37,838 nt of DNA. Source: a virus. Below are positions 6,836 to 36,652 of this stretch, piece by piece. Made by a program: the position numbers and the translations under genes. Below the pieces are notes generated by a model. It had not been told where the DNA came from. It saw only the letters and a list, made by a program, of their open reading frames with translations, and did not search any database. Location of the stretch: positions 1-37,838 of IMG/VR virus record IMGVR_UViG_3300046010_006778; one strand, written 5' to 3'. Numbering within the stretch: position 1 is the first letter of the stretch; each line of letters starts with the position of its first letter.

Positions 6836-7075
6836 ATGGAACCTAAAGTAATAAAACAGAAAATGACTGAATTTATTAAAGAAAATTCTTTATTAATTCA
6901 AGAATTGAAAGATGAATATGGTAGAAAATATTGGATGGAGGAATTTTATAATGAAAGTAAAGTTCAAACATTTATGAACTCCTTTATCCTCACTAAAGAG
7001 GAATTAGAAGATTATGGACATGGGTGGACGGATGAAAAAGATGAGATGTTTTATGAATTACTTAATAAAAAATAA
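6836..7075 (+). CDS. Unknown helical acidic protein (79 aa)
   Basis: Single-gene cassette: promoter P8, GTTATG start, promoter P9 right after. Helical, acidic and Trp/Tyr-containing, with DYGHGWTDEKDEMF near the end. No recognisable domain. Confidence 0.7.
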   Translation: MEPKVIKQKMTEFIKENSLLIQELKDEYGRKYWMEEFYNESKVQTFMNSFILTKEELEDYGHGWTDEKDEMFYELLNKK

Positions 7076-20651: not shown

Positions 20652-21137
20652 ATGAAATTAGATGCATTCAGAAAAGTAATTAGAGAAGAAGTAAAAAAAG
20701 CTATTCAAGAAGAAATGAGAGATATTCTACTTGAAGCAGTAAAATCTGCTAGCAAACCAAATTTAACTGGAAACCAATCTACTCAACCCTATTCTAAAGT
20801 AGAATCTACTTACAAACCAACATTCTCAGACATAATTGCTGAAGAAAGAAAACCTATCCCTTCTACAGGTAATCCTATGTTAGATATCTTAAATGAAACT
20901 GCTCAAGCAGGTGAATGGAGAACTTTAAATGGAGGAGAATTTAATGCCTCACAAGCAGTAGGATGGGCTGGAGGAGCACCAGGTATGATGGGTGGTTCCA
21001 ATACTCCTGTAGTAGCATCAGTAGATGAAATGATTAAATCTCAAGGACCTGTACGTGATATAAATGATGTACGAATTGATGTAGTACCTGATTTTTCAAA
21101 ATTCATGGGTGCTTTAAAAGAAAAAGGTAGTATTTAA
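20652..21137 (+). CDS. Unknown virion-block protein (161 aa)
   Basis: N-terminus is a charged helix (MKLDAFRKVIREEVKKAIQE) followed by a disordered, Ser/Thr/Pro-rich middle and a Gly/Met-rich part (AGGAPGMMGGSN). The C-terminus is DVRIDVVPDFSKFMGALKEK. Similar small proteins sit just before gp25 in some T4-like phages; their role is not known. Stop overlaps the gp25 start. Confidence 0.65.
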   Translation: MKLDAFRKVIREEVKKAIQEEMRDILLEAVKSASKPNLTGNQSTQPYSKVESTYKPTFSDIIAEERKPIPSTGNPMLDILNETAQAGEWRTLNGGEFNASQAVGWAGGAPGMMGGSNTPVVASVDEMIKSQGPVRDINDVRIDVVPDFSKFMGALKEKGSI

Positions 21138-21550
21138 TGGCTTATAATGTAATTAATATTAGTCCTTTAGACCTACAACCTAGTAAAGGGGTAGGTATCC
21201 AAGTTCCTTTTAATGGAACTACTGGATTGAATATTACTTATACAACTAAAGACGCTGTTAAATCTAATATTTTAAATTTTTTCTTAACAGGAAAGAAAGA
21301 AAGAGTAATGAATCCCTCATTTGGAGCGGGAATAAGAGAACAATTATTTGAACAAATAGTTCAAGGTACTGTTCAAAATATAGAAGATATTATTAAATTT
21401 GGATTGTCGGATTATTTCCCTCAAGTAAGACTAAATAAACTAACTGTAGAGGCCTCCCCAGACCAAAATTTAATTCAAGTGTATTTTAGTTATTCTATAA
21501 TAAACACTAATATACAAGATGAAATTTTAATAAATTTTAATAATGGCTAA
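21137..21550 (+). CDS. Baseplate wedge protein gp25-like (137 aa)
   Basis: Matches the gp25/GPW family: an N-terminal strand followed by TTKDAVKSNILNFFLTGKKE (37-56) and the typical RVMNPSFGAGIREQLFEQI (57-75), then the VRLNKLTVEASPD strand. In T4, gp25 seeds sheath polymerisation and binds wedge protein gp6; here the gp6-like gene follows with an 8-nt overlap, keeping the T4 order. Length fits the family (about 130 aa). Start TAATGG is coupled to the previous stop. Confidence 0.9.
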   Translation: MAYNVINISPLDLQPSKGVGIQVPFNGTTGLNITYTTKDAVKSNILNFFLTGKKERVMNPSFGAGIREQLFEQIVQGTVQNIEDIIKFGLSDYFPQVRLNKLTVEASPDQNLIQVYFSYSIINTNIQDEILINFNNG

Positions 21551-23420
21551 TACTAAAGCGGTACAATATTTAAATAAAGACTTTGATAGTTTAAAAGCAC
21601 AGTTAATTAACTTTGCTAAAACTTATTATCCTAACACTTATAATGACTTTACAGAAGCATCTCCAGGTATGATGCTTATTGAAATGGCTTCATATGTTGG
21701 TGATATTTTATCGTTTTATACTGATAATCAAATTCAAGAAAATTTCTTGCAATTTGCTAAACAAAGAAAAAATTTACTAGCGTTAGCTTATAATTTTGGA
21801 TATAGACCTAAAGTTACAAGTGCTTCTTCTGTAGAAGTAAGTGTATATCAAGTAGTACCTTCAACTATAGTAAATAACCAATATGTACCTGATTTTGGAT
21901 ATGCTTTAATTTTAGAAGAAGGAACTCAATTACAAGCTAGAATTAATGGAAATATATCATTTTATATAAATGAAAAAGTAGATTTTTCTAATTCTGGATC
22001 TTCTCCTATAGACATTTCAGTTTATACTCCTGATATTAATGGAAACCCATATCTTTATTTACTTAAAAAAACAGCGAAAGCTACGGCTGGAGCTTTAACT
22101 ACAACAACATTTACATTTGGTAATCCTGAACGTTATCCTACCGTAATACTTACTGATACTAATATAATTTCTATAGTAAGTGCAATCGATTCTGATAATA
22201 ATATATGGTATGAAGTACCTTATTTAGCTCAAGATACTATTTTTGAAGCTACTGAGAATACTGCTACCAATGATCCTAATTTATCACAATATAGTAATAC
22301 AACTCCTTATTTACTAAAATTAAAAAAAGTACCTAGAAGATTTGTTTCACGTTTTAAAACAAACAATTCATTAGAATTACAATTTGGGCCAGGTGTTTCA
22401 TCTGGTGCAGATGAGGAAATTATTCCTAATCCTGATAATGTAGGTTTAGGTTTACCTTATGGAATTGATAAAATGATGACTGCTTGGGATCCTTCAAACT
22501 TTTTATATACTCAAACATATGGTTTAGCCCCTTCAAATACTACTTTAACAGTAACTTATTTAAAAGGAGGAGGAGCTACTTCAAATATACCTTCTAATAC
22601 TTTAACCAATCGTATTGGTGGAACTAATACATTTGCAGGTAGTGGATTAGATCCAACTTTACAAAATACTGTTTTAAACTCATTAGCATTTACTAATGAA
22701 GTTGCTGCAGTTGGTGGAGGAGATGGAGATACTAATGAAGAAATAAGACAAAATTCTTTAGCTATGTATCCTACACAGTTAAGAACTATTACTGAAGATG
22801 ATTATATTATTAGAACTTTATCTTTACCTTCTAAATATGGTTTAATTTCTAAAGCCTTTATCACTCAAGATATGGGCATAAGTGTTAATTATCCAACAGA
22901 TTTATTAGCTACTCAAAATCCTAATGCTCTTTCATTATATGTTTTATCTAAAAATACAACAGGTAATTTAACAGTTTCTAGCCCTGCTTTAAAACAAAAT
23001 TTAAAAACATTTCTTTCTGAATATAGAATGTTAACTGATGCAGTTAATATAAAAGATGCTTTTATTATTAATATTGGAGTAAATTTTGATATAATAGTTA
23101 GACCTAATTATAATAATAAATTAGTAATAAACAATTGCTTAAATGTCTTACAATCTTACTTTAATATAGATAAGTGGCAAATTAATCAACCTATTATTCT
23201 ATCTGATATTTATAGTAATTTAGATCAAGTAGATGGTGTTCAAACAGTCCAAAAAGTAGAGATAATAAATAAAGCCGGAACCAATTCAGGTTACTCACAA
23301 TATGCATATGATATTAAAGGAGCAACTATTAATAATATTTTATATCCTTCTTTAGATCCAAGTATTTTTGAAGTTAAAAATTTAACAACTGACATACAAG
23401 GAAGAGTAGTTACTTTTTAA
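21543..23420 (+). CDS. Baseplate wedge protein gp6-like (625 aa)
   Basis: The start AVQYLNKDFDSLKAQLINFA with YPNTYNDFTEASPGMMLIEM and the following SYVGDILSFYTDNQIQENFL is the recognised N-terminal signature of gp6/baseplate J-like wedge proteins. Residues 30-100 form the helical gp6 core, a beta-rich insertion domain follows, and GGGDGDTNEEIRQNSLAMYP with TITEDDYIIRTLSLP at about 395-425 marks the J-like part. gp6 forms the ring that clamps the wedges together. Length is near T4 gp6 (660 aa). The position next to gp25 supports the call. Confidence 0.9.
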   Translation: MANTKAVQYLNKDFDSLKAQLINFAKTYYPNTYNDFTEASPGMMLIEMASYVGDILSFYTDNQIQENFLQFAKQRKNLLALAYNFGYRPKVTSASSVEVSVYQVVPSTIVNNQYVPDFGYALILEEGTQLQARINGNISFYINEKVDFSNSGSSPIDISVYTPDINGNPYLYLLKKTAKATAGALTTTTFTFGNPERYPTVILTDTNIISIVSAIDSDNNIWYEVPYLAQDTIFEATENTATNDPNLSQYSNTTPYLLKLKKVPRRFVSRFKTNNSLELQFGPGVSSGADEEIIPNPDNVGLGLPYGIDKMMTAWDPSNFLYTQTYGLAPSNTTLTVTYLKGGGATSNIPSNTLTNRIGGTNTFAGSGLDPTLQNTVLNSLAFTNEVAAVGGGDGDTNEEIRQNSLAMYPTQLRTITEDDYIIRTLSLPSKYGLISKAFITQDMGISVNYPTDLLATQNPNALSLYVLSKNTTGNLTVSSPALKQNLKTFLSEYRMLTDAVNIKDAFIINIGVNFDIIVRPNYNNKLVINNCLNVLQSYFNIDKWQINQPIILSDIYSNLDQVDGVQTVQKVEIINKAGTNSGYSQYAYDIKGATINNILYPSLDPSIFEVKNLTTDIQGRVVTF

Positions 23421-24480: not shown

Positions 24481-24821
24481 TGGCTGAAGTAATTCAATTA
24501 AATAAAACAGTTTATGGTAAAATTACATATCCTAATGTAATTGATACTGAGTTTAAACAATTAATTAGACCCCAAACAGAAGTAACTTCATCAGCAGTAA
24601 CTGTAAATCAATTTTTTAATTATTATAATGATTTATTTTATGAAATACCTACTGAAGGAGATTTTAATTCACATTTAGAATTAATAAAAAGAAGTACAGA
24701 ATATGTTGGTGTTAATCAAAACTCAGGAGAAATAGATGCTCTATTAGATGAAATTAACCAACTTAGACTTGAAAATTTAACGTTACAACAAACAATAGAT
24801 GATTTAACAGCATCAGCATAA
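24480..24821 (+). CDS. Small structural protein with C-terminal coiled coil (113 aa)
   Basis: Coupled to both neighbours (stop-start overlaps of AATGG type). Residues 85-110 (IDALLDEINQLRLENLTLQQ) are a clear Leu-heptad coiled coil. The N-terminal part is mixed. Possibly a trimerisation or connector element for the giant protein behind it; no family recognised. Confidence 0.7.
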   Translation: MAEVIQLNKTVYGKITYPNVIDTEFKQLIRPQTEVTSSAVTVNQFFNYYNDLFYEIPTEGDFNSHLELIKRSTEYVGVNQNSGEIDALLDEINQLRLENLTLQQTIDDLTASA

Positions 24822-27800
24822 TGGAAATTACAAACGTATCACAACTTGATTCAAATCAATTCATAAATCAAGATTATAAAATAAATGATGAATCATTACT
24901 AAATTCTTTGAATATTAGTAATGAATTTGGTTTACCTAATGATAAAGTAGAAGTGCACGTTATATCTCCTAATGGTGATATACTAAATTCTGTTTATGAT
25001 TTTAGAAATTATACTACAAGACAAACAGTTCAAGGAACTTCTTTATATAATCAAATTGAATTAGACCCTAAAGCTGATTTAGAATCATTTGGTATTAATC
25101 AAGGTCAATATGATATAACTTATAACTTTTATAGACCTTTATTTTCAAGTTCTGAAGCTAATAAGTTCTTTATATCAGATATATCATCAGATAGAACAGA
25201 AATTAAAATTTCTAATAATAATATATCATATACTGATTTAGGACAATCTTATTTAACTTTTATAGCTGAAAGAAATTCCAAAGCTTATTATTCAGATTTT
25301 ATTTTAAATTTTGGTGATAATAAAACTTATATAGGAGTTAATGTTGCTTTTGATAATTCAAATGAAGCTTACGCTAATTTATATATTAAATTATATGAGC
25401 CTTTACCATCTAATATTAAATTAAAAGATACATTTTGGATTGTAGAGAGTATTTCTGAACCATATGCTTTTCAAGTTGATACAACTTTCTTAGCAGAAGC
25501 AACACTTGATACTTTATCTTTAAGAGGCCCAAATATTAACATTGAATTAGCTGAAAAAACTAATTTAACTACACCTTATTTGAATTTATCTACTTTATTA
25601 AATTCAAGTATTTCTTCTTCTTATCAACAATTACAATCTTGGTTAGAAGAAAAAAGTATTGAAATAACAGTTGATTATACAGATTTTTCTAATTTTGTGC
25701 ATTTTTCATCTGCAAGAGAAAGACTTGAGAATTTTAAATATAAATTAACTCAAATACAATCTCTTCAATCTGATATTAATGCTATAAATAATTTAAATGC
25801 TTCTTCTAGCATAACTTATACATCAGCTAGTGTACTTAATTTACAAAATCAATTAGATACTCTTATCCAAAAATTTGATGGATATGAATATTTTTTATAT
25901 TACGAATCTGGAAGTAGTTCATGGCCTAAAAGTAATTCAACTAAACCTTACATAAATTCAGCTGTTACTACATCTGTAGCTTTAAATTGGTTTGGCTCAG
26001 TTGATTATACTTCACAATATTATGGAGGACAAGTTTTAGATGCAGATAATTATGATATTAATAATAAAGATTATATTTGGAATAATCTACCTGAATATAT
26101 AAAAGCTGATTCTCAAAATGCTAATTTAGAATTATTTACTTCTATGTTAGGTCAACATTATGACTATATTTGGACTTATATAAAAGATATTACTGACTTA
26201 CAAGTTGCAGATAATAGAATTGATTATGGTATTTCTAAAGATTTAGTAGCTGATACTTTAAGAAATTTTGGTATTAAACTTTATACTAATTCAAGAAATC
26301 AAGAAGATTTATATTTAGCTTTATTAGGAATTGATTCTAATGCTGCTACTTTACCTTCTACAGGTTCTTACATGATAAATAATTATGTGACTGCCTCTCA
26401 ATATACTATCCCTGATAATGATATCGTAAAAGAAACATATAAAAGATTGTATCACAACTTACCTTACTTACTCAAGACTAAGGGTACAAGAAGAGGGTTA
26501 CGCGCTTTAATCAATTGTTTTGGTATTACTGATACAATATTAAAAATTAGAGAATACGGTGGTAATAGAAAAGATTTAGAAGTTATTGAACAAATTACTC
26601 CTAAATTTAACTATGCATCCTCTTTAGATACTACTGCTCCATCAAATTATATCATAATTACAGGAGGCCCGTCTTATAAACAATATTTAGATTCAGGTTC
26701 AAATGATATTTATCCTGATACTTTAGAATTTAGATTTAAATTAGATAGTGATAATATATTACCTACACAATCTATATTAGAATCCTCTGGTCAGAATCAA
26801 ATTATTAGAGTTACTTACATATCTGAATCTTATGCTAATATTGATTTTGGTTTAAGTGATAGTGGTAATCCTTTTTATTCAACCCCTATAACTCTTCCAT
26901 TATATAATGACGATTGGTGGACTTTAAATTTAACTAGAGAAACAGGTAGTATAGATAGAAACAATATATTATACTTTAATACTCCTCAAACTTATACTTT
27001 AACTATTGGTAATAAAGATTCTAATGGAATACAATATTTAGAGTCTTGTTCTATATATAGAGATGGAGTATTTAATAGTAATTTTATTAATTCTTGGTTA
27101 GATAATCAATTATTTCCTGGTGGAGCGAATTACGTGTATCCGTTTACAGGTTCAATTCAAGAATTTAGGTATTGGGTAGGTTCTATCCCTATTAATAATT
27201 TTAAAGATCATATTTTAAATCCACAATCTATTGTATTTGATAGTGTAAGTGGTTCATATCCTAATCTAATATTCAGAGCTCCTCTAGGATCAGAATTAGA
27301 TATAAATAATACAGCTCCAACTTCAGTACATCCTTCAAATACTGCTTCATTCTGGACAGGAGTAGCATTTTCAGATTATAATGTTTATTCTTCTTATAGT
27401 ATTAACTATGAAGATTATTTAATTAATACTCCTAATATTGGAAGTTTTACTGAAATAGATGAAAAAATAAGAGTAGCAACTCCTAATTTAGTACCTGGAG
27501 ATGTATTAACACCTTATATTTCAATACAGAAACCTGAAATATATCCTTACACTAATGATTTAAATATAGTAGAGGTAGCTATTTCACCACAGGATTCAAT
27601 TAATGCTGATATTATAGACCAATTAGGTTCATTTAATATTGATGAGTATATTGGAGATCCTAGATTAGCATCATCAGGTTCTTATCCTGCTTTAACAGAT
27701 TTAAGAAATTTTTATTTTAAAAAGTATTCTAAAAAAGAAAATATTTTTGATTTAATAAAACTTTTATCTTATTTTGATAATTCTTTATTCAAAATGATAA

Positions 27801-30349
27801 AGGATTTTGTTCCTGCTAAAGCTAATTTATCAACAGGATTAGTTATTAATACTACTATTTTAGAAAGAAATAAAATAGCTAGACATGAACCTGTACTATC
27901 TTTTGTAGATCATAGTGGTTCAATAGAAACAGCATTTATAACTGGTTCTAATGGACTTGATGAAATCTATAATACTTCTTATACATCTTCTACTTCTTAT
28001 ATATCAGGAAGTGTATTTAAATACAATAATGATAGTAGAGAATTATTTACAGGTGAATTAGGAGGTACTACAATAATAGCTCATTCTCAATCATTAGATA
28101 ATATAGTATATGAATTAAATCGTATTCCTATATCTACTTCCCAAGCTATTAATCAAAACTTTTATAGATTACCCTTAAATCCTATTCTAAATAATGTTTC
28201 AACTGCTAGAACTTCTACTAAATATCTTGATGTAGATTATACTTATACACCTATAATTCCTGTTAATTTTAATTATTTAACTTCAAGTTTATTTTTAAAT
28301 TTAAATACTAATGCTTATCAATTTTTAGATGCTCCTGTACAAGATAGTAATTATACTTTAGCTAGACATATTATTCCTAGATATTTGGGTAGTAAACTAA
28401 CAGGATTTACATATAATATTTATACTTTTGGAGATACTTCTTATGGTAGTGATCCTGTAATAAATTATAATGCTGTTGAATTTGCTTATTTTAAAGAAAT
28501 CACTTCTCAATCAGTAACATTCCCTGGAAGAGTAAACGCTAATATTAAATATTTAATTAATAGTGCTTCTAATATTGTTGAATTAACTGAAGCTAATAAA
28601 AGTTTATTTGATGTTCAAAATTTATTTAATAGAACAAGTGCTAATATAGCTTTAGATAATATTAATCAACCTTCCAAACAAAAATCCTTAAATGGGTTAA
28701 AACCAATTTATGCGGGTGGATTTAGATATGAACCAATATTACAAAATTTTTCAACAAATGTTGCTGCTTTTCCTCCTCAATTACAATTAAATTTTGAAAA
28801 TGAAGTACCTATTTTAAATACTAGTACAACTCCTGTAACACAATCCACCTCAGGACTATTAGATATAGGTACACCCCAATTTTCAACTGCTCCTACTGTT
28901 ACAGCTTTAAATTTAAATTCTAACACATTAAGTGTTGTGATTAATTCTAGAATTAAATTCCCTAATGTTCAAAGAACTACATTATATGAAGGAGAAATAA
29001 GACAAAGGGTAACAGGTACTATTCAACTTACTATTAAAGTATCACCTGCTCCTTTATTAAGTACTTTATTTAGTCAACCTATAGCAGGTTCTCAAGTAGG
29101 ATTAGTAACTTGGTCGGGTATTAATTTAGGATCTTATGAATATAATGATGGGCAAATTTCACCTATTAATAATGTAAATTGGAATAATAATATAAGATCT
29201 GTCAACTTACCAGTGGGAGTTAATGGTTTCTTTTATCTACATCCTAATAGAAATTCCTTAATGAATACTATTATAGGAAATGGTCAAAGACAAGATTTAA
29301 CAGTTTTATTTTTTGATGGTCCTTCATCTTTTGATTTAAAATCTACAGGTACAACAGCCTCATTTGCAATACCTACAATTAACACAAATCAATTTAATCC
29401 ATCTTCTCCTTCTACTTTTAGTCAAAATGCTGGTAATTATATTATAGAAGAAAATGATGGATTTGAGTTAATTGTAACTTTCCCTATAGATGGTTATTTA
29501 ATATCACCCTCAAATGCTCCTAGTAATGCCTCATTAGAATTAGTAAACCTATCAGGCTCCTTAAGTTCTATTATTAGTAGTATTAATATTACTAAAACTA
29601 CTACAAGTGGTCAAATTAAATTTACAACAGCTCCTACTTTTAATTATATTTTACCACCAAATGGAAATCCTTTTATATATACTGATCCACCACAATATAT
29701 TTATCAAACAGGATCTTTTGATAATGGATTTAGCAGTGGGAGTAATAATAATTATTATTTTGAAAGAGGTAATAGTGTGATTAGTGGTAGTCTATTTACA
29801 TATTTAACTGCTTCTTATGATTTATCTACTTTATATTATAATAATGATTTAACAGATAATAATTTTATTCAAATTCTTCCAACAGCATCTCTAATAGATC
29901 CAATTTTAGGAGGATTTCAAGATATAACTGAATATTTTATACCTAAAAAAGGAGATCTAATCAGATTTTTTAATCATGATAGTGGTAAATTTCCATTTGC
30001 ATCTGATTTTGAAAGAGAAATAGTTAATATATATCCTCCACAAGGTACACCTATTGGAAGTGGTTCTAACGGAACTGGATCTTATGATAATAGATTAGTT
30101 TTTGAAGTAATGGGAACAGATATCCCAAATCAAGCATGTGTAAACTCACCATCAGGCTCTACAATAGGTAAAATACAAAATTTTATATTTCTATCTAAAA
30201 TACCAGATGAAACAAATATAGTATTAATAGCTAATAAAAAACCAGGCCAAACTTCTACAGGAATATTAATCCCTGATAATATAAATACAAAATTAAAAGA
30301 TGAGGCTGGTAATATAATTAAAAGTTTAAAATCACAAAACTTAATTTAA
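24821..30349 (+). CDS. Giant tail/baseplate protein with LamG-like domain (1842 aa)
   Basis: Largest gene of the window. N-terminal about 300 residues are beta-rich, followed by a coiled-coil-like stretch (about 303-355). Residues about 400-600 carry sequence I associate with large baseplate/tail proteins of T4-like phages, including NLPYLLKTKGTRRGLRALIN near 545-565 and the preceding ETYKRLYHNLPYLLK helix. Residues about 633-785 look like a concanavalin/LamG domain (DTLEFRFKLDSDN, then DDWWTLNLTRETGS, then GSIQEFRYWVGSIP). The rest is long, Ser/Thr/Asn-rich and strand-forming, typical of fibres. It probably forms a peripheral wedge part (gp7-like position) or fibre base; exact role not known. 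Confidence 0.75.
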   Translation: MEITNVSQLDSNQFINQDYKINDESLLNSLNISNEFGLPNDKVEVHVISPNGDILNSVYDFRNYTTRQTVQGTSLYNQIELDPKADLESFGINQGQYDITYNFYRPLFSSSEANKFFISDISSDRTEIKISNNNISYTDLGQSYLTFIAERNSKAYYSDFILNFGDNKTYIGVNVAFDNSNEAYANLYIKLYEPLPSNIKLKDTFWIVESISEPYAFQVDTTFLAEATLDTLSLRGPNINIELAEKTNLTTPYLNLSTLLNSSISSSYQQLQSWLEEKSIEITVDYTDFSNFVHFSSARERLENFKYKLTQIQSLQSDINAINNLNASSSITYTSASVLNLQNQLDTLIQKFDGYEYFLYYESGSSSWPKSNSTKPYINSAVTTSVALNWFGSVDYTSQYYGGQVLDADNYDINNKDYIWNNLPEYIKADSQNANLELFTSMLGQHYDYIWTYIKDITDLQVADNRIDYGISKDLVADTLRNFGIKLYTNSRNQEDLYLALLGIDSNAATLPSTGSYMINNYVTASQYTIPDNDIVKETYKRLYHNLPYLLKTKGTRRGLRALINCFGITDTILKIREYGGNRKDLEVIEQITPKFNYASSLDTTAPSNYIIITGGPSYKQYLDSGSNDIYPDTLEFRFKLDSDNILPTQSILESSGQNQIIRVTYISESYANIDFGLSDSGNPFYSTPITLPLYNDDWWTLNLTRETGSIDRNNILYFNTPQTYTLTIGNKDSNGIQYLESCSIYRDGVFNSNFINSWLDNQLFPGGANYVYPFTGSIQEFRYWVGSIPINNFKDHILNPQSIVFDSVSGSYPNLIFRAPLGSELDINNTAPTSVHPSNTASFWTGVAFSDYNVYSSYSINYEDYLINTPNIGSFTEIDEKIRVATPNLVPGDVLTPYISIQKPEIYPYTNDLNIVEVAISPQDSINADIIDQLGSFNIDEYIGDPRLASSGSYPALTDLRNFYFKKYSKKENIFDLIKLLSYFDNSLFKMIKDFVPAKANLSTGLVINTTILERNKIARHEPVLSFVDHSGSIETAFITGSNGLDEIYNTSYTSSTSYISGSVFKYNNDSRELFTGELGGTTIIAHSQSLDNIVYELNRIPISTSQAINQNFYRLPLNPILNNVSTARTSTKYLDVDYTYTPIIPVNFNYLTSSLFLNLNTNAYQFLDAPVQDSNYTLARHIIPRYLGSKLTGFTYNIYTFGDTSYGSDPVINYNAVEFAYFKEITSQSVTFPGRVNANIKYLINSASNIVELTEANKSLFDVQNLFNRTSANIALDNINQPSKQKSLNGLKPIYAGGFRYEPILQNFSTNVAAFPPQLQLNFENEVPILNTSTTPVTQSTSGLLDIGTPQFSTAPTVTALNLNSNTLSVVINSRIKFPNVQRTTLYEGEIRQRVTGTIQLTIKVSPAPLLSTLFSQPIAGSQVGLVTWSGINLGSYEYNDGQISPINNVNWNNNIRSVNLPVGVNGFFYLHPNRNSLMNTIIGNGQRQDLTVLFFDGPSSFDLKSTGTTASFAIPTINTNQFNPSSPSTFSQNAGNYIIEENDGFELIVTFPIDGYLISPSNAPSNASLELVNLSGSLSSIISSINITKTTTSGQIKFTTAPTFNYILPPNGNPFIYTDPPQYIYQTGSFDNGFSSGSNNNYYFERGNSVISGSLFTYLTASYDLSTLYYNNDLTDNNFIQILPTASLIDPILGGFQDITEYFIPKKGDLIRFFNHDSGKFPFASDFEREIVNIYPPQGTPIGSGSNGTGSYDNRLVFEVMGTDIPNQACVNSPSGSTIGKIQNFIFLSKIPDETNIVLIANKKPGQTSTGILIPDNINTKLKDEAGNIIKSLKSQNLI

Positions 30350-30396: not shown

Positions 30397-31056
30397 ATGG
30401 GATTTTTAAATAACACATCAGTAACCGTAGATGCTATTTTAACTAAAAAAGGCAGAGAACTTTTAGCTAAAAATGACGGTTCATTTAGAATTACTCAATT
30501 TTCATTATCTGATGATGAAATTGACTATACTCTTTATAATCCAAACCATCCATCTGGATCAGCTTTTTATGGTGAAGCTATTGAAGCTATGCCTATAATT
30601 GAAGCTTTTCCTGATGAGACTCAAATAATGAAATATAAACTTTTAACTTTACCTCGTGGTACTGCTAAATTACCTGTATTAGATGTAGGTTATACTTCAA
30701 TAACATTACGTCAAGGGGCTTCACTTGCTATTACTCCTCAAACTTTAAATTATTTAGGAGCATCTACAGCATTTGAATCCTCAGGATACACTGCCACTAT
30801 AGGTGATTCAAGATTATTATCTACATTTAATGGTGTTGGTATTAATACTGCTGAAGTTCAAGCTTTAAATTCAACAACAACAATAGGAACAAATGTTTCA
30901 AGAACTGTAATTGGAGCTACTATTAACTTAACAGCTACAACTGTCAATACATTATTTGGTACAAATTCTTCTTTATCTACTATTTTAACTATAACTGGTA
31001 GAGATTCAGGAGCTAGATTAACTATACCTTTAACAATAACTAGAGTAACTAGCTAA
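30397..31056 (+). CDS. Conserved virion protein (219 aa)
   Basis: First gene after late motif L4. The first 60 residues (GFLNNTSVTVDAILTKKGRE, ITQFSLSDDEIDYTLYNPNH) are a distinctive conserved start that I associate with structural proteins of T4-like phages of Bacteroidota and related phages. The C-terminal half is Thr/Ser-rich and beta-like. Likely a component near the fibres, since fibre genes follow. No enzymatic motif. Confidence 0.75.
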   Translation: MGFLNNTSVTVDAILTKKGRELLAKNDGSFRITQFSLSDDEIDYTLYNPNHPSGSAFYGEAIEAMPIIEAFPDETQIMKYKLLTLPRGTAKLPVLDVGYTSITLRQGASLAITPQTLNYLGASTAFESSGYTATIGDSRLLSTFNGVGINTAEVQALNSTTTIGTNVSRTVIGATINLTATTVNTLFGTNSSLSTILTITGRDSGARLTIPLTITRVTS

Positions 31057-31067
31057 TTAAATAAAAT

Positions 31068-32120
31068 ATGAGCTTTATAACATTAAACGCTGAAGACTTT
31101 GTAGTAAGTTCAGATTCAATAGTTTCAACACTATGGAGTGACAATACAACTGCTATGACTAGTTTTTTCACTTCATCTACATCGCCTACAAATAATTCAT
31201 ACCTTCCAGTATATCAAAGATCTACTACATTATATCCATCAGACCTATCCCAATTTTCCATTTCATATGGGCAAGTAAATGGGTCGGGTTCTGCTCCTAT
31301 CAATTCATTAGTACCAGGATTATCTCCTACAAGAATTACTTATGGTCAGTTTAGAACATTAGTGAATGGAGATGAAAATACTAATATTAGTTTTGGTACA
31401 GGTAATACTAATTCACCTGATTTTTATGTAATTAATATTAATAGAGCTAACTATAAAGAAAAATTATTTTTAGGAACATTTAACTTAGCACTATCGGGTT
31501 CAGATGGGGTAGCTTCATCATCAATACAATTAACTAATAATAGTGTCAATGTTACTACATTAACTTATTGTGATGCTGGTAGGGTATTTGATATAGTTAG
31601 TGGCTCTAATGGGGCAGCTACAACCTCTACAATTACTAGTGGAAGTACTGCAGGTTACACAGTTTCAGGTTCATATGGTAAATTTCTACCAGATGTAGGT
31701 TTAATATTATTAAATTCTAGAGCTTTATCTTTATCTTGCAGTCTAGGAGGTATAGGGTTACAACCAGGTACTTCTAATACTAATCCAACTCTATTAAATA
31801 CCCAAATTGGATTATTTAACGCTATAAATAAAGCTAACGGTGTAGGTGGTTTTAAACTAAATAGTGAAGAAACTATAACATCAGATTATGTTTTTGTTAG
31901 AATTAAAAATAATGATTTTAACTATACTACTAATCCTTCTATGATAAGTGGTAGTGGAGAATTTTATTATCCTACTTTAGTTAATAATCCTCAAACTTTT
32001 ATTACAACAGTTGGTTTATATAATACTAATAATGAGTTATTAGCTGTAGCTAAATTATCAAAACCACTACCAAAAGATTTTACAAAAGAAGCTCTTATCA
32101 GAGTAAAATTAGACTTTTAA
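31068..32120 (+). CDS. Fibre-family structural protein (350 aa)
   Basis: Belongs to a local family with the next two genes. N-terminus MSFITLNAEDFVVSSDSIVS parallels MSFSYKTLNSNDISLTSYIA of the next gene; the VGLILLNSRALSL strand near 210-222 parallels SQGLIVLTDQDYL there; and the last 85 residues (VFVRIKNNDFNYTTNPS, then FITTVGLYNTNNELLAVAKL) match the small protein at 35204. The middle is Ser/Thr/Gly-rich. Probably a fibre or fibre-adaptor subunit with an exchangeable C-terminus. Confidence 0.7.
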   Translation: MSFITLNAEDFVVSSDSIVSTLWSDNTTAMTSFFTSSTSPTNNSYLPVYQRSTTLYPSDLSQFSISYGQVNGSGSAPINSLVPGLSPTRITYGQFRTLVNGDENTNISFGTGNTNSPDFYVININRANYKEKLFLGTFNLALSGSDGVASSSIQLTNNSVNVTTLTYCDAGRVFDIVSGSNGAATTSTITSGSTAGYTVSGSYGKFLPDVGLILLNSRALSLSCSLGGIGLQPGTSNTNPTLLNTQIGLFNAINKANGVGGFKLNSEETITSDYVFVRIKNNDFNYTTNPSMISGSGEFYYPTLVNNPQTFITTVGLYNTNNELLAVAKLSKPLPKDFTKEALIRVKLDF

Positions 32121-32123
32121 TGA

Positions 32124-35100
32124 ATGAGTTTTTCATACAAAACATTAAATTCAAATGATATATCATTAACCTCCTATATTGCTAATAAACAATGGGGGGT
32201 TAATAATACTACTTTATCTCAAAATGGAGTTACAATTTATATAGGTGAGAATTTACCTATTGATAGAACTAATCCTTTTGATCCTATAAATGACTCACAA
32301 ACAGCAAACGAAGAATATAGAAGATTAGTTTATGATTCTATAAAAAATCTTTATTACCAAAACTACACCTCAGGATCACTTACAGGACGATTTTTCCATT
32401 CATCATCATTTTTTAACTATGAGCAATCTACTTTGACTTCAGGGTCAATGCTAGCTGCAAATAGAAATATACCTACTTTAACAGGTAGTTCTGCTATTGG
32501 TACTAATCCTACTCTTTTTAATAACACTCTATATAATATATCATCAAGTTTATATGATGAAACTGGATTTGATCCTGATATAGGAAGTAAAATAGTTGTA
32601 ATATCAATTGATCAAAATATTTTCGGTTCAGGATTATCTCCTAAATCTGTAGTAATATCAGGTTCAACTTATAATATCCAAGATGATGGTGAAGGTAATT
32701 TATTAGATACTTTAGCTACTTCTTCTTTATATATAGGTAATGTATTTTATTCTCAAGGATTAATAGTACTTACAGATCAAGATTATTTATGTATATTTGG
32801 AGCTCCTCCAACTACAGCTAATGATTATTATTTATACCAAAATACAGAATATCTTTCTCAATCACTACAAATATTAACAAATGATTTTGCTGATTGTGGT
32901 AATTTAGATCCTACATCAGTACAATTAATGTCTGTACCAGGATTTAGTTTTCCTAATTATACTATAAATAATGGTATTATAACTATAACACCTGATCAAA
33001 CTAGTGTAATACCTGGTAATTATAAATTAGAGTATACTATTGGAAATTTTAATGGAGTAAGAAGTAATACTAGCTCAATTGATTTAACAATAACTGCTTT
33101 ATCTTTAGAAATTAATAACCTAATAAGTTCATCAGTTTGTTTTAATTCAACTGCAAGTGTACCTGTAACATTTTCTATCAATTATGGGGTACCTCCTTAT
33201 AGTTATTCTTTAAATAATGAAACTACATATACAGGAATACCTGGATTTTTTAATAAAACTGTTAGTGGTAGTATAACTTCTTCTAATAGTAATGTTATTT
33301 ATGTTAAAGATTATTTAGGAACTACAATATCCCAATCATTTAATTCTTGGTATCCTGGTATATCATATACAACTAGTATAATTAAATTACCATGTTCTAG
33401 TATTAGCAATGATGGTATAATAACAATATCCGATGATGGGACTGGAACCTCTGTTTCTGCTTCTATAGATAGTGGTTCATATTTTCCTTTACCTAAACAA
33501 TTTACAGGATTATCAACAGGTTCACATACTATAGCAGTTAAAAATTCATTTAATTGTATTACAAGTTCTATAGTAAATTTAGGAGTTTATTCTGCTTTAA
33601 CTGCTAGTGTAACTCAATCTAATATACCTTGTTATGGTGGGTCTAATGGGTCTATAACTGTAGCATTTACAAATGTAATTGATAATTTAATAGTTAATCT
33701 GTTAGATGCTACTGGAAGTAATATCTATACTAATGTTAGTCTAAGTTCATTCCCAAATAATACTGTAACTGCTTCTGGTTTAGTTACTGGAAGTTATAAT
33801 TTAAATGTAACAGCCTCTGGTATAAATCAATGTCAATCTTATAGTAATACTTTTACTTTAACTTCACCTACAGCTCTAACTTTAACTACTACAGCTTCTT
33901 ATATAGATTCATGTTCTAATGCAATTATTATAAATGGAAGTGGAGGAACTCCTCCTTATACTTATTTTGCTTTTAATACAGGATCAGGATTAACGTATTC
34001 TTCAGATTCAAGTTCTATAAGTTTAAATGGGCTAAGTTCTGGAACCTATACAACTTTCTTAATAGATAGTAATGGTTGTTCTTCTCCTACTTCAAGTATA
34101 GAAATATTTGAAAGAAATTATGTTTATACTGGTTCATTTTGTGTAACTTCTTCAGGAATTAATACAGGATATGTTTCAAGTTCAGGAATACGACAAATTT
34201 TTAATTCAGGAATCTACTCAGGTTCAGTAGTAACTTCTAGTTATTCTAACGGAACTACTCTATTTGGTCCTACTATAAACTTTACAGAATTATTTATCTC
34301 AGGAACAAATGATGTTATAATTAAATGTAATACTAATGTATATTATAGATATTATCTAGATATTGCTCAATGTACTCCTCCAACAGCTTGTGTTCCTCCT
34401 ATAATAACAGATGTAACATTACTTGGATGCGACGATGCTAGTTTTAGATATCAATATAATATATATTTCAACTCAGCTTCAAATTCTGCCTCTTCTATGT
34501 CTATTGAATACAGTCTATACCCAGATTTTAATGGGCCTATAGGATATAGAAAATTTACCCTACCTGATTCCCCTCCAGGAGGTGAAATAGTTGTAAGAAC
34601 GTTTGGTGGACTTACATCATCTCTCAACCAGCCTTTTGCTAATTCATATGATTATAGAGCCCAACCAGTATATTTTAGAGCTTTTAATAGTTGTAGTAAT
34701 GGGGCTACTTCTTCCTACAGTAATATAATATCTGCTTCATGCCTAATTATAGACCCAGTTCCTGAATTTGAACCACTTACTATACAATTCAAAAATTTAT
34801 CAGGTCAAAGCGTTGAATATTTTTTAAATAATGGTTCAGGTATTACAGTAGTAAATAATGCTACTAATACTTTTACTGTATCTGACCCATTAGAATTTAA
34901 TCTAGATTTTAGTATATTGGGAAGTAATAATTATGCTGGCTTTATAGACCAAAATGGATATTATGTATATAGTATGACAGTATCTGGTAGTAATATCCTT
35001 ATTGGTAATGTAATTACATCAGTTATCCCACAAATAAACTCAGGAAACTATCCATATTCTTTAATTAGCCCTTACACTCCAGCTCAAAATGTACAATTTG

Positions 35101-35204
35101 CTTCTAATGGTGATGAAATAAGTACAGATGTAAGTGTTTATATAGATAGAACAAGTTATACACCTGCTGCAACTATAAAATTAACTATTAATAATTTCGC
35201 ATAA
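32124..35204 (+). CDS. Putative tail fibre/adhesin with SprB-like repeats (1026 aa)
   Basis: Shares its N-terminal 220 residues with the preceding protein. From about 328 to 660 it carries about four Ig-like repeats of SprB type. The clearest is near 583-660: C597, GGTPPYTYFAF, SLNGLSSGTYTTFLIDSNGC; another near 491-580 has IPCYGGSNGSITVAF and SGLVTGSYNLNV; two weaker ones have PPYSYSLN and FTGLSTGSHTIAVKNSFNC. SprB repeats are known from the giant gliding adhesin of Flavobacterium. Residues about 757-880 resemble a fibronectin-like domain, and the C-terminus is a different beta-rich domain. The protein probably binds the host surface. The stop overlaps the next start. Confidence 0.75.
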   Translation: MSFSYKTLNSNDISLTSYIANKQWGVNNTTLSQNGVTIYIGENLPIDRTNPFDPINDSQTANEEYRRLVYDSIKNLYYQNYTSGSLTGRFFHSSSFFNYEQSTLTSGSMLAANRNIPTLTGSSAIGTNPTLFNNTLYNISSSLYDETGFDPDIGSKIVVISIDQNIFGSGLSPKSVVISGSTYNIQDDGEGNLLDTLATSSLYIGNVFYSQGLIVLTDQDYLCIFGAPPTTANDYYLYQNTEYLSQSLQILTNDFADCGNLDPTSVQLMSVPGFSFPNYTINNGIITITPDQTSVIPGNYKLEYTIGNFNGVRSNTSSIDLTITALSLEINNLISSSVCFNSTASVPVTFSINYGVPPYSYSLNNETTYTGIPGFFNKTVSGSITSSNSNVIYVKDYLGTTISQSFNSWYPGISYTTSIIKLPCSSISNDGIITISDDGTGTSVSASIDSGSYFPLPKQFTGLSTGSHTIAVKNSFNCITSSIVNLGVYSALTASVTQSNIPCYGGSNGSITVAFTNVIDNLIVNLLDATGSNIYTNVSLSSFPNNTVTASGLVTGSYNLNVTASGINQCQSYSNTFTLTSPTALTLTTTASYIDSCSNAIIINGSGGTPPYTYFAFNTGSGLTYSSDSSSISLNGLSSGTYTTFLIDSNGCSSPTSSIEIFERNYVYTGSFCVTSSGINTGYVSSSGIRQIFNSGIYSGSVVTSSYSNGTTLFGPTINFTELFISGTNDVIIKCNTNVYYRYYLDIAQCTPPTACVPPIITDVTLLGCDDASFRYQYNIYFNSASNSASSMSIEYSLYPDFNGPIGYRKFTLPDSPPGGEIVVRTFGGLTSSLNQPFANSYDYRAQPVYFRAFNSCSNGATSSYSNIISASCLIIDPVPEFEPLTIQFKNLSGQSVEYFLNNGSGITVVNNATNTFTVSDPLEFNLDFSILGSNNYAGFIDQNGYYVYSMTVSGSNILIGNVITSVIPQINSGNYPYSLISPYTPAQNVQFASNGDEISTDVSVYIDRTSYTPAATIKLTINNFA

Positions 35205-35509
35205 TGGCAGCTATAGTACAAGATCCAAATGCTACTTTAAATTTCAAAAACGAATATATCGTTTATGAACAGGAAGTTCGTTGTAAAGTCGGAGAAAACG
35301 ATTTTAACATGTCTTTAAACCCTACAATATCAACAGATAATTCAGGTTCATTAAGAAACTTTGCTACAAGTTCATTCTTTGCTCCTTATGTCACAACAGT
35401 AGGATTATATAATAATAGAAATGAATTATTAGCTGTAGCTAAATTAGCACAACCAATTCCTCTTTCTTCAACAACAGATACAGTTTTTGTAGTTAAATAC
35501 GATATTTAA
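35204..35509 (+). CDS. Small fibre-module protein (101 aa)
   Basis: Residues about 25-101 match the C-terminus of the 350-aa protein at 31068: both have K/I-x-E/N-NDFN, NP-x-I/M-S, then TTVGLYNxxNELLAVAKL and a closing strand. So this is the family's C-terminal domain as a free protein, possibly the piece displaced when the large repeat region was inserted into the protein in front. It is coupled to that gene by a stop-start overlap. Expected to be a virion component at the fibre or its base. Confidence 0.75.
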   Translation: MAAIVQDPNATLNFKNEYIVYEQEVRCKVGENDFNMSLNPTISTDNSGSLRNFATSSFFAPYVTTVGLYNNRNELLAVAKLAQPIPLSSTTDTVFVVKYDI

Positions 35510-35523
35510 AATAAAATATAACT

Positions 35524-35976
35524 ATGGTTACAACTCCAACTTGGATTTATAAAGGTAAAGTAATAACAGAAATATCAGATATGCCCGAAAATACTTTCGG
35601 GTTTATTTATGAAGTAACACATTTACCTACAGATAAAAAATACTTAGGTAAAAAACAATTAATGTCAGTTACTAATAAAGCATTAGGTAAAAAAGAATTA
35701 GCTTTAATTACTGATAAGAGATTAAGTAAGAAAAAACAAGTAATAAAAGAATCTGATTGGAAAACTTATTATGGTTCACAATCAGAAATAAAGCAGTTAA
35801 TAAAAGACGGTAATAAAGAAGATTTCAAACGTGAAATACTTTGTTTTGTTCCCACAAAAAAATTATTAACTTACTATGAAACAAAATATTTGTTTGTAAA
35901 TGAGGTATTAGAATCTGGAAGTAATTATTTTAATGATAATATAGAAGGACGTTATTTTAGGAAGGATTTTATTTAA
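35524..35976 (+). CDS. SegE-like GIY-YIG endonuclease (150 aa)
   Basis: Residues 26-46 (GFIYEVTHLPTDKKYLGKKQ) contain the paired strands of a GIY-YIG core in the variant spelled FIYEVT ... KYLGKK, as in T4 SegE-type proteins. Tyr81-Tyr82 in KTYYGSQSEIKQLI and Glu119 in YYETKYLF are candidates for the other conserved positions. Unlike T4 SegE, nothing shows that it is mobile; family members of this type often lie in the late region of large phages next to structural genes. Start 14 nt after the fibre module. Confidence 0.75.
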   Translation: MVTTPTWIYKGKVITEISDMPENTFGFIYEVTHLPTDKKYLGKKQLMSVTNKALGKKELALITDKRLSKKKQVIKESDWKTYYGSQSEIKQLIKDGNKEDFKREILCFVPTKKLLTYYETKYLFVNEVLESGSNYFNDNIEGRYFRKDFI

Positions 35977-36003
35977 TATTCTTGGTAAGTTTTTTCTATT
36001 TTA

Positions 36004-36012
36004 ATATTTATA
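36004..36012 (+). promoter_or_regulatory. Candidate late promoter motif ATATTTATA (L5)
   Basis: ATATTTATA 13 nt before the ATG of the homing endonuclease gene at 36026. Confidence 0.5.
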
Positions 36013-36025
36013 ATAAATAATAATT

Positions 36026-36652
36026 ATGATAGGAATATACAAAATTACAAACCCAAAAGGGAAAATTTACATTGGACAAAGTATTAATATAGAAAGAAGG
36101 TGGAGAGAATATCAAAGATTGCAATGCAATCAATCTCTTAAATTATATAATTCTTTAAAAAAATATCAATATGAAAATCATATGTTTGAAATAATAGAAG
36201 AATGTGATATTGATTCATTAAATGATAAAGAAGAATTTTATATATTAAAATTTAATAGTCATATTAATGGTCTTAATATTAAATTAGCATCTAAACCTTC
36301 ATGGACTGGGAAAACCAGACCAGAACATAGCAAATTAATGAAAGAAATTTCTAGTTTTAGATATGAAAGAACCCCAGAACATAAACAACAATTAAGAAAT
36401 ATGATGTTAAATGTGTGGGAAAATAAAGGTAAAGAAATAAGTAAAAAAATATCTCAAAATAAAATAGGAAAAGGAACTAAATCCATATTATGCCATGAAA
36501 CTCAAATCGTGTATAATAGTATAAAAGAATGTAGTGAGAAAATGAATATTAGTAAAGGATTAATTTGTAGTTTTGTCAAGGGTAAATATTCTTACCCCAC
36601 ATTAAAAGGATTTACTTTTTCTTATGCAAAAGACTTTGATATCATAAAATAA
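36026..36652 (+). CDS. GIY-YIG homing endonuclease with NUMOD-type DNA-binding modules (208 aa)
   Basis: Mobile free-standing nuclease. The catalytic domain at 1-90 has GIYKIT at 3-8, KIYIGQS at 13-19, the catalytic Arg in ERRWREY (23-29) and the metal-binding Glu in DKEEFYIL (67-74). Residues about 94-150 contain the NUMOD3-like repeats (SWTGKTRPEHSKLM; RTPEHKQQLRNMM; SQNKIGKG). Residues 152-205 resemble a NUMOD1/IENR1 helix-turn-helix (NSIKECSEKMNISKGLICSF). It sits alone between late genes and the primase and has its own late-type motif L5. Its target is probably an allele of a neighbouring gene lacking the insertion. Confidence 0.9.
   Translation: MIGIYKITNPKGKIYIGQSINIERRWREYQRLQCNQSLKLYNSLKKYQYENHMFEIIEECDIDSLNDKEEFYILKFNSHINGLNIKLASKPSWTGKTRPEHSKLMKEISSFRYERTPEHKQQLRNMMLNVWENKGKEISKKISQNKIGKGTKSILCHETQIVYNSIKECSEKMNISKGLICSFVKGKYSYPTLKGFTFSYAKDFDIIK

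Follow-up and report, generated by a model that had tools for sequence, protein, structure and literature searches.

An open reading frame (ORF) of 1026 amino acids (32124-35204, plus strand) in the tail gene run of an aquatic phage probably encodes an anchored baseplate or tail fibre, in which a shaft of SprB-type repeats appears to have been gained once by insertion and which probably ends in a variable tip. The ORF lies in an IMG/VR virus record of 37838 bases, which is called the window here. From its N-terminus, the protein is composed of an N-module, a Big_9-like domain, four SprB-like repeats and a variable C-terminal part. The product, expected to be present in the virion, would be an adhesion fibre attached to the baseplate or tail of a large myovirus: the conserved N-module would serve as the anchor, the Big_9-like domain and the four SprB-type Ig repeats would form an extended shaft, probably with one disulfide per repeat in three of the repeats, and the fast-evolving C-terminal region would be the tip for binding to the host surface. 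This shaft would have arisen when Bacteroidota-type repeats were inserted, in a single event, into a small tail gene with contiguous N- and C-modules, and the C-module would afterwards have become a separate ORF, whose start here overlaps the fibre stop (TAATG). This would be an apparent case of a Bacteroidota adhesin repeat family brought into a phage fibre by insertion within a conserved tail gene, and as the uninserted sister form is found in an isolated Flavobacterium phage, the role of the repeats in adsorption is directly testable.

The record is probably a fragment. When a 24-kb stretch of Flavobacterium phage vB_FspM_immuto (immuto; host, Flavobacterium sp. LMO8) is compared with the window, 13 of the 22 window ORFs compared are matched in the same order, and the ORFs upstream of 19134 have no counterpart within that stretch. 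Megablast of window positions 15001-37838 against 50,697 phage records gave no match. Because of the collinearity with immuto and the sizes of the immuto genome (160 kb) and of the contig of a relative, L002 (173 kb), the window is probably part of a large myovirus. Two baseplate wedge genes (21137-23420, plus strand) are located upstream of the fibre ORF on the same strand, one at 21137-21550 (PHROG 261) and the other at 21543-23420 (PHROG 219). Nearer to the fibre are genes for a conserved 219-aa protein (30397-31056, plus strand), whose immuto counterpart is 76% identical, and for a 350-aa protein (31068-32120, plus strand; predicted structure with pLDDT 36), a homologue of immuto gp106 that carries a C-module of its own at the C-terminus. 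The separate 101-aa C-module ORF (35204-35509, plus strand) comes directly after the fibre, and two GIY-YIG genes and then a primase gene are found downstream of the tail run. Immuto gp105, a hypothetical protein of 357 aa, occupies the same gene place among the same neighbours, and behind it in immuto come genes with tail fibre and tail spike annotations. This arrangement bears on another reading, in which the protein is a decoration or whisker elsewhere on the particle and not a tail fibre; Hoc-like PHROG matches occur in one or two of 22 relatives of the fibre, but with the gene downstream of baseplate wedge genes and annotated tail fibre and tail spike genes next in immuto, this reading seems very unlikely.

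Other features of the run are recorded here in their own right. An ORF of 1842 aa in the tail run (24821-30349) has partial matches to immuto gp109 (1265 aa) and no useful family match in Pfam, PHROGs and NCBIfam. The two GIY-YIG endonuclease genes (35524-36652), which are adjacent and separate the tail run from the primase gene, are different: the first is retained in immuto with 73% identity, and the second (36026-36652) has no counterpart within the compared immuto stretch.

The repeats were identified with a profile of bacterial origin. At least 120 bacterial genome stretches with DNA encoding GGTPPYTYxW supplied 130 repeat units; 37 of these were used as the seed, and extension within the same 121 ORFs brought the set to 1008 repeats, giving a profile of 92 positions with zero phage loci. 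Against this full-length SprB profile the window protein scores 59.3 bits in four domains at aa 322-390, 413-493, 484-588 and 575-663, in agreement with the borders (33105-34110, residues 328-662) proposed by an earlier note made from the sequence alone. The four domains are serial and span most of the profile, which taken alone is unspecific (see below). The repeats are assigned as follows, all on the plus strand: repeat 1, aa 325-411 (33096-33356), 11.9 bits; repeat 2, aa 412-490 (33357-33593), 14.5 bits; repeat 3, aa 491-585 (33594-33878), 22.4 bits; and repeat 4, aa 586-664 (33879-34115), 40.7 bits with an E value of 9.4e-15. In hhalign comparisons with bacterial SprB, repeats 1-4 reach 90, 96, 97.6 and 98% probability, and four other segments about 1% or less. 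The top score among 1000 shuffles of residues 220-1026 was 2.4 bits, and seven other window ORFs scored 0.6 bits or less. In Pfam, SprB (PF13573) is the top family for the window protein (17.8 bits, E 0.0025), as the same note had expected of a profile search, although the score stays below the curated cut-off of 28 bits. At E 1, Pfam adds just Por_Secre_tail (E 0.11), located within the repeats; a PF13573 search of the genome hit a single place (23.4 bits), and one of five relative records exceeded the cut-off (28.6 bits). Among the 22 relatives, 15 match SprB at E 0.01, and any other family is matched at most once.

The note's description of four SprB-pattern repeats is borne out in number by the profile; its full motif (GGxxPYxY followed by GLxxGxY...DxNGC) is found in repeat 4 only, as GGTPPYTYF and GLSSGTYTTFLIDSNGC. 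Repeat 1 has GVPPYSYS and lacks the second cysteine, and repeats 2 and 3 have GLxxGxH/Y...C and lack GGxPPY. Seven cysteines are present in aa 325-664, six exactly on SprB cysteine columns and C597 off by one residue. The pair formed by the first and last cysteines of a repeat is seen in repeats 2 (C424/C478), 3 (C503/C570) and 4 (C597/C652), and repeat 1 has the first one, C339, only. Across the 22 relatives, two of the cysteine columns are invariant and five are conserved in at least 90%. For windows that were picked after looking, the chance of seven out of seven cysteines falling in eight windows is 2e-6. In the 130 unfiltered bacterial units, 106 have the first cysteine, 98 the last and 82 both; a further count of this kind, 779 of 890, is biased upward because the 37 seed repeats were picked for having both cysteines. 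The repeats are concluded, on sequence grounds, to be of SprB type and degenerate, repeats 3 and 4 being stronger and repeats 1 and 2 weak.

The score on the SprB profile was rejected as a proof by itself. A Hoc-like protein of a Klebsiella phage scores 66.2 bits on it, above the window protein, and four other Ig-type proteins score 24-41 bits (L187 with He_PIG in Pfam; L148, L193 and L232 classed by look only), so that the score alone indicates only an Ig-like repeat; repeats 1 and 2 taken alone score no higher than other Ig-type domains. The Klebsiella protein also passes the Pfam SprB cut-off with 30.9 bits. These scores, together with the common occurrence of Ig folds among phage structural proteins described in part of PMC6867891, leave room for the view that ordinary phage Ig-like domains (Hoc, He_PIG or PKD type) have come to resemble SprB by drift, with no special link to Bacteroidota adhesins and with a role as glycan stickers or spacers. 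Since the profile catches other Ig domains, it is the positions of the cysteines, the relative preference and the architecture that carry the argument. The pair of cysteines agrees with SprB, and the tested Hoc-like protein, which lacks this pair, matches Ig_3 first (71.8 bits). The window fibre protein has no Ig_3 or I-set match at E 1 in Pfam and no PHROG match at E 0.1, and none of the 22 relatives matches Ig_3, I-set or He_PIG at E 0.01, against the 15 that match SprB. Furthermore, when profiles of phage repeats 1-4 are searched in the opposite direction, the best of the 121 bacterial ORFs scores 21.8, 35.2, 43.5 and 31.3 bits and one Hoc protein -0.1, 4.2, 7.9 and 19.1 bits, a preference of 12 to 36 bits in all four repeats that is tilted to the bacterial side, because the best of 121 ORFs is set against a single protein. 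Drift of ordinary Ig-like domains is therefore considered unlikely, and the evidence supports the reading that the repeats are nearest to SprB repeats of Bacteroidota.

Predicted structures are consistent with this class of fold. In AlphaFold2 models based on 13 family sequences, the repeats are predicted as beta-sandwiches, with block pLDDT of 69-93 over residues 331-580 and just 48-77 in repeat 4, and the PDB structural matches of the fibre model are Ig/FN3-type chains; the Ig-type folds anticipated for the repeats were thus recovered at the level of prediction. The N-module blocks have pLDDT of 22-44, residues 665-880 are mostly below 60, and the C-terminal 140 residues reach 63-86. In Foldseek the top PDB match is GhpA of Aureispira, a surface protein of Bacteroidota, and seven GhpA chains are among the 50 matches listed. 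This giant cell-surface protein (PDB 9fly and others) has serial Ig-like folds alone in common with the fibre, at 11-17% class identity and TM-scores below 0.4. Because whole-model TM-scores by query are 0.07-0.23 and rmsd is poor, only the sandwich class of the repeats is used here. VIA-align 2 gives mostly FN3/Ig chains with Z of 9-11, many with large rmsd, and sequence searches of the PDB gave nothing at E below 0.02. Of the flanking parts, aa 227-324 (32802-33095, plus strand) were read from the sequence as a tentative Big_9/cadherin-like Ig domain; relative L284 matches PF17963 at 245-328 with E 0.0025, below the cut-off, and in the set of 22 relatives one matches the family. Residues 665-880 (34116-34763, plus strand) would be a linker and a second beta domain, perhaps weakly FN3-like, as some VIA-align rows over 583-873 match FN3 pairs with Z of about 10 and rmsd of about 15.

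The N-module (aa 1-226; 32124-32801, plus strand) is the putative conserved phage anchor. The earlier note had taken the N-terminal part for a phage structural module, and it is indeed conserved in place in immuto gp105, downstream of the baseplate wedge genes. Gp105 aligns to the window fibre through residue 219, and after about 30 bases the alignment goes on with the ORF at 35204-35509; the SprB stretch is absent and the N- and C-modules are contiguous. The proposal that adhesin-type repeats had been placed on a phage protein can thus be put in a stronger form, as an apparent insertion into a short tail-region protein. An N-module alignment scan of IMG/VR, in which the best 80 were kept, yielded 79 loci as the best of 378 relatives, so that the following proportions are not population frequencies. 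Twenty-five of the 79 have long ORFs that score at least 34 bits for SprB and lack the C-module; another 52 have short ORFs of 301-479 aa, in which the N- and C-modules are fused and SprB scores are 5 bits or less; and two are unclassed, one ORF running off its contig and the other being a 101-aa fragment. The two kinds of ORF do not overlap. The counterpart of the 101-aa C-module of the window is thus joined to the N-module in the relatives that lack SprB, and it stands alone as a downstream ORF in all 24 long forms that could be tested (L284, whose contig ends there, was left out), three of which have a second fibre ORF in between.

Some of the 79 loci are copies, and 57 N-modules are distinct. 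In a tree of these 57, the 22 SprB bearers all lie on the same side of a branch with support of 99/97; the tree has long branches and an unsettled bootstrap, and it is unrooted, the root being drawn for display. The fused form without SprB is found both in immuto and in an 11145-base contig of a Flavobacteriaceae bin (G364), and gp105 residues 201-357 align continuously with a protein of a Microcystis phage; a single gain by insertion is therefore the simplest reading, while gain rather than loss is what we infer from an unrooted tree. In relatives L270, L278 and L279, a TAA and a nearby ATG split the fibre immediately behind the SprB repeats, at the position equivalent to aa 676 (ORF ends at 7031, 5115 and 7106, respectively), which indicates that the segment behaves as modules. 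In Microcystis phage Mel-JY01, the C-module of WWT39517 (591 aa; L266:4696-6468) is followed, like that of the window, by GIY-YIG and primase genes, and it is preceded by a laminin-G/concanavalin-like domain (E 3.2e-14), which suggests that adhesive domains can be socketed at this gene place. The N-module with a separate C-module offers a sequence handle for finding more fibre inserts.

Divergence is unequal along the protein. In alignment A1, from which the copies L001, L007 and L024 were left out and in which L003 ends at its stop, identity was computed for 55 pairs of 11 rows, without L003 and L026. The mean is 79% in the N-module, 70% in the Big_9-like domain, 54-62% in the repeats, 60% in aa 665-768, 49% in aa 769-880 and 30% in the C-terminal 146 residues (aa 881-1026; 34764-35201, plus strand; minimum 17%), the putative receptor-binding tip. 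For five chosen pairs and five regions, dN/dS lies between 0.05 and 0.21 for the N-module, between 0.26 and 0.71 for the repeats and between 0.28 and 0.92 for the C-terminus, which exceeds the N-module in all five pairs and ranks first among the regions in three. In the other cases, the repeats of the pair L009/L010 (0.71 against 0.68 in the tip) and aa 665-880 of the window and L002 (0.64 against 0.59) are faster, so that parts besides the tip may be involved in binding. A position in the tail/baseplate gene run, a conserved anchor and a variable distal end, as would characterize a tail fibre, are all found here. From the drop in identity from 79 to 30%, the repeats are read as a shaft and the C-terminus as the receptor-binding tip, the pattern expected of an anchored fibre. 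The repeats are less conserved than a mere rod would be, and adhesion of their own is possible by analogy with the gut phage adhesins in part of PMC13370021, where Ig-like proteins displayed on another phage confer adherence.

Alternatively, the repeats themselves might be the contact site, binding the same polysaccharides as the adhesins of the host or mimicking its SprB filaments, and tie the phage to the gliding layer. The adherence just mentioned would fit, as would the faster evolution of the repeats relative to the anchor and the discussion, in passages of PMC7345892 and PMC13288928, of gliding proteins as receptors for phages of flavobacteria. The repeat family is also the same as that of a giant Flavobacterium protein: the genome of Flavobacterium hydrocarbonoxydans (L043's genome, G006) has a stop-free frame of about 8000 aa with 82 domains over 10 bits. 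This frame presumably terminates in a gliding-associated sorting domain. The C-terminal region is, however, far more variable than the repeats (30% versus 54-62% identity), and this gradient points to it as the main contact site; we consider the alternative quite unlikely. More speculatively still, SprB repeats might have been captured from a Bacteroidota host into a gene that is a general socket, so that virions ride the moving adhesin layer or polysaccharide track to the receptor; if true, particles would be transported across the cell or along its gliding surface until they reach their true receptor. We give this idea a very small chance. The anchored fibre with a shaft of repeats and a variable tip remains the preferred reading.

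A tie to gliding Bacteroidota, which the earlier note had drawn from the repeats, found no support. SprB as proof of a gliding host was rejected, as the bacterial sources of the repeats include Prevotella and five non-Bacteroidota records: among 120 titles, of at least 120 matches, 113 are Bacteroidota, five are other and two are neither, and ORFs from all 120 went into the SprB profile. The nearest phage with a known host, that of Flavobacterium sp. LMO8, is without SprB repeats, and the window shares with the Microcystis phage both the C-module and the GIY-YIG and primase genes next to it. The SprB gliding adhesin is a giant substrate of the type IX secretion system (T9SS) with a C-terminal sorting domain. 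The fibre, of 1026 aa, lies behind a phage N-module, and no C-terminal sorting domain over the cut-off was found in it with Pfam and NCBIfam. The host would probably be a member of the Bacteroidota. A peptide-pattern search for a close bacterial donor returned 45 stretches, none of them a relative, and weak matches were seen to two plasmid-borne Bacteroidota proteins (Runella, E 1e-3; Emticicia, E 3e-2). Of 397 Flavobacteriaceae genomes, 215 match the window at E 0.01, all short and weak except G364, and a simple repeat test found no CRISPR-like repeats around 16 short genome matches. The contig in G364 (L349, G364:C50) contains a related run of phage tail genes, in which the fibre gene has the fused form without SprB, and it may be a phage contig placed in that bin.

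Compared with known systems, Bacteroidota SprB (PF13573) and the phage protein share a full-length profile match, first and last cysteines, serial repeats and an Ig-like sandwich (predicted for the phage), while the phage has four degenerate repeats under the Pfam cut-off behind an N-module and the bacterial frame has tens of repeats. T4-type Hoc is bound to the capsid by its C-terminal domain. Gut Bacteroidota phage adhesins (BACON, PKD, Big_2), as presented in part of PMC13370021, are likewise domain-mosaic Ig adhesins; they belong to other Ig families, and the word SprB is absent from the main text. In a viral structure library, UniProt A0A6J5LD72 and A0A6J5LDA4, both named "SprB repeat [uncultured Caudovirales phage]", rank 2 and 27 for the fibre model, the likeness being a structural match. 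A scan of viral contigs for DNA encoding GGTPPYTY gave at least 119 stretches, at least 102 of which have an ORF at E 1e-5 on the SprB profile; some are other Ig families, and some stretches may be host DNA. Proteins of L180 and L172, from another phage type, exceed the Pfam SprB cut-off with 82.4 and 53.5 bits, and with the existing database names they indicate that SprB in contigs classed as phage is not unique to the fibre clade. No title listed in searches of open-licence papers concerns SprB repeats in phage fibres, and immuto is unmentioned in the passages of PMC7077304 that were examined. What is new is the fibre architecture and its evolution; SprB names for phage proteins in databases and Ig-like adhesin fibres of phages were already known.

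Several of the other SprB-bearing viral proteins have features of their own. L180 (149-3400, minus strand), L172 (6826-12447, plus strand), L213, L205 and L216 encode long proteins, in which SprB-type repeats number up to seven. PTPTPTQTPT-like linkers are seen in L180 and L216, and an adjacent gene of about 1000 aa is present in L180, L172, L213 and L205. In L186 (2-2659), the end of the SprB-bearing protein looks like a Hint/intein-type domain (CFIKGTKITLASG...).
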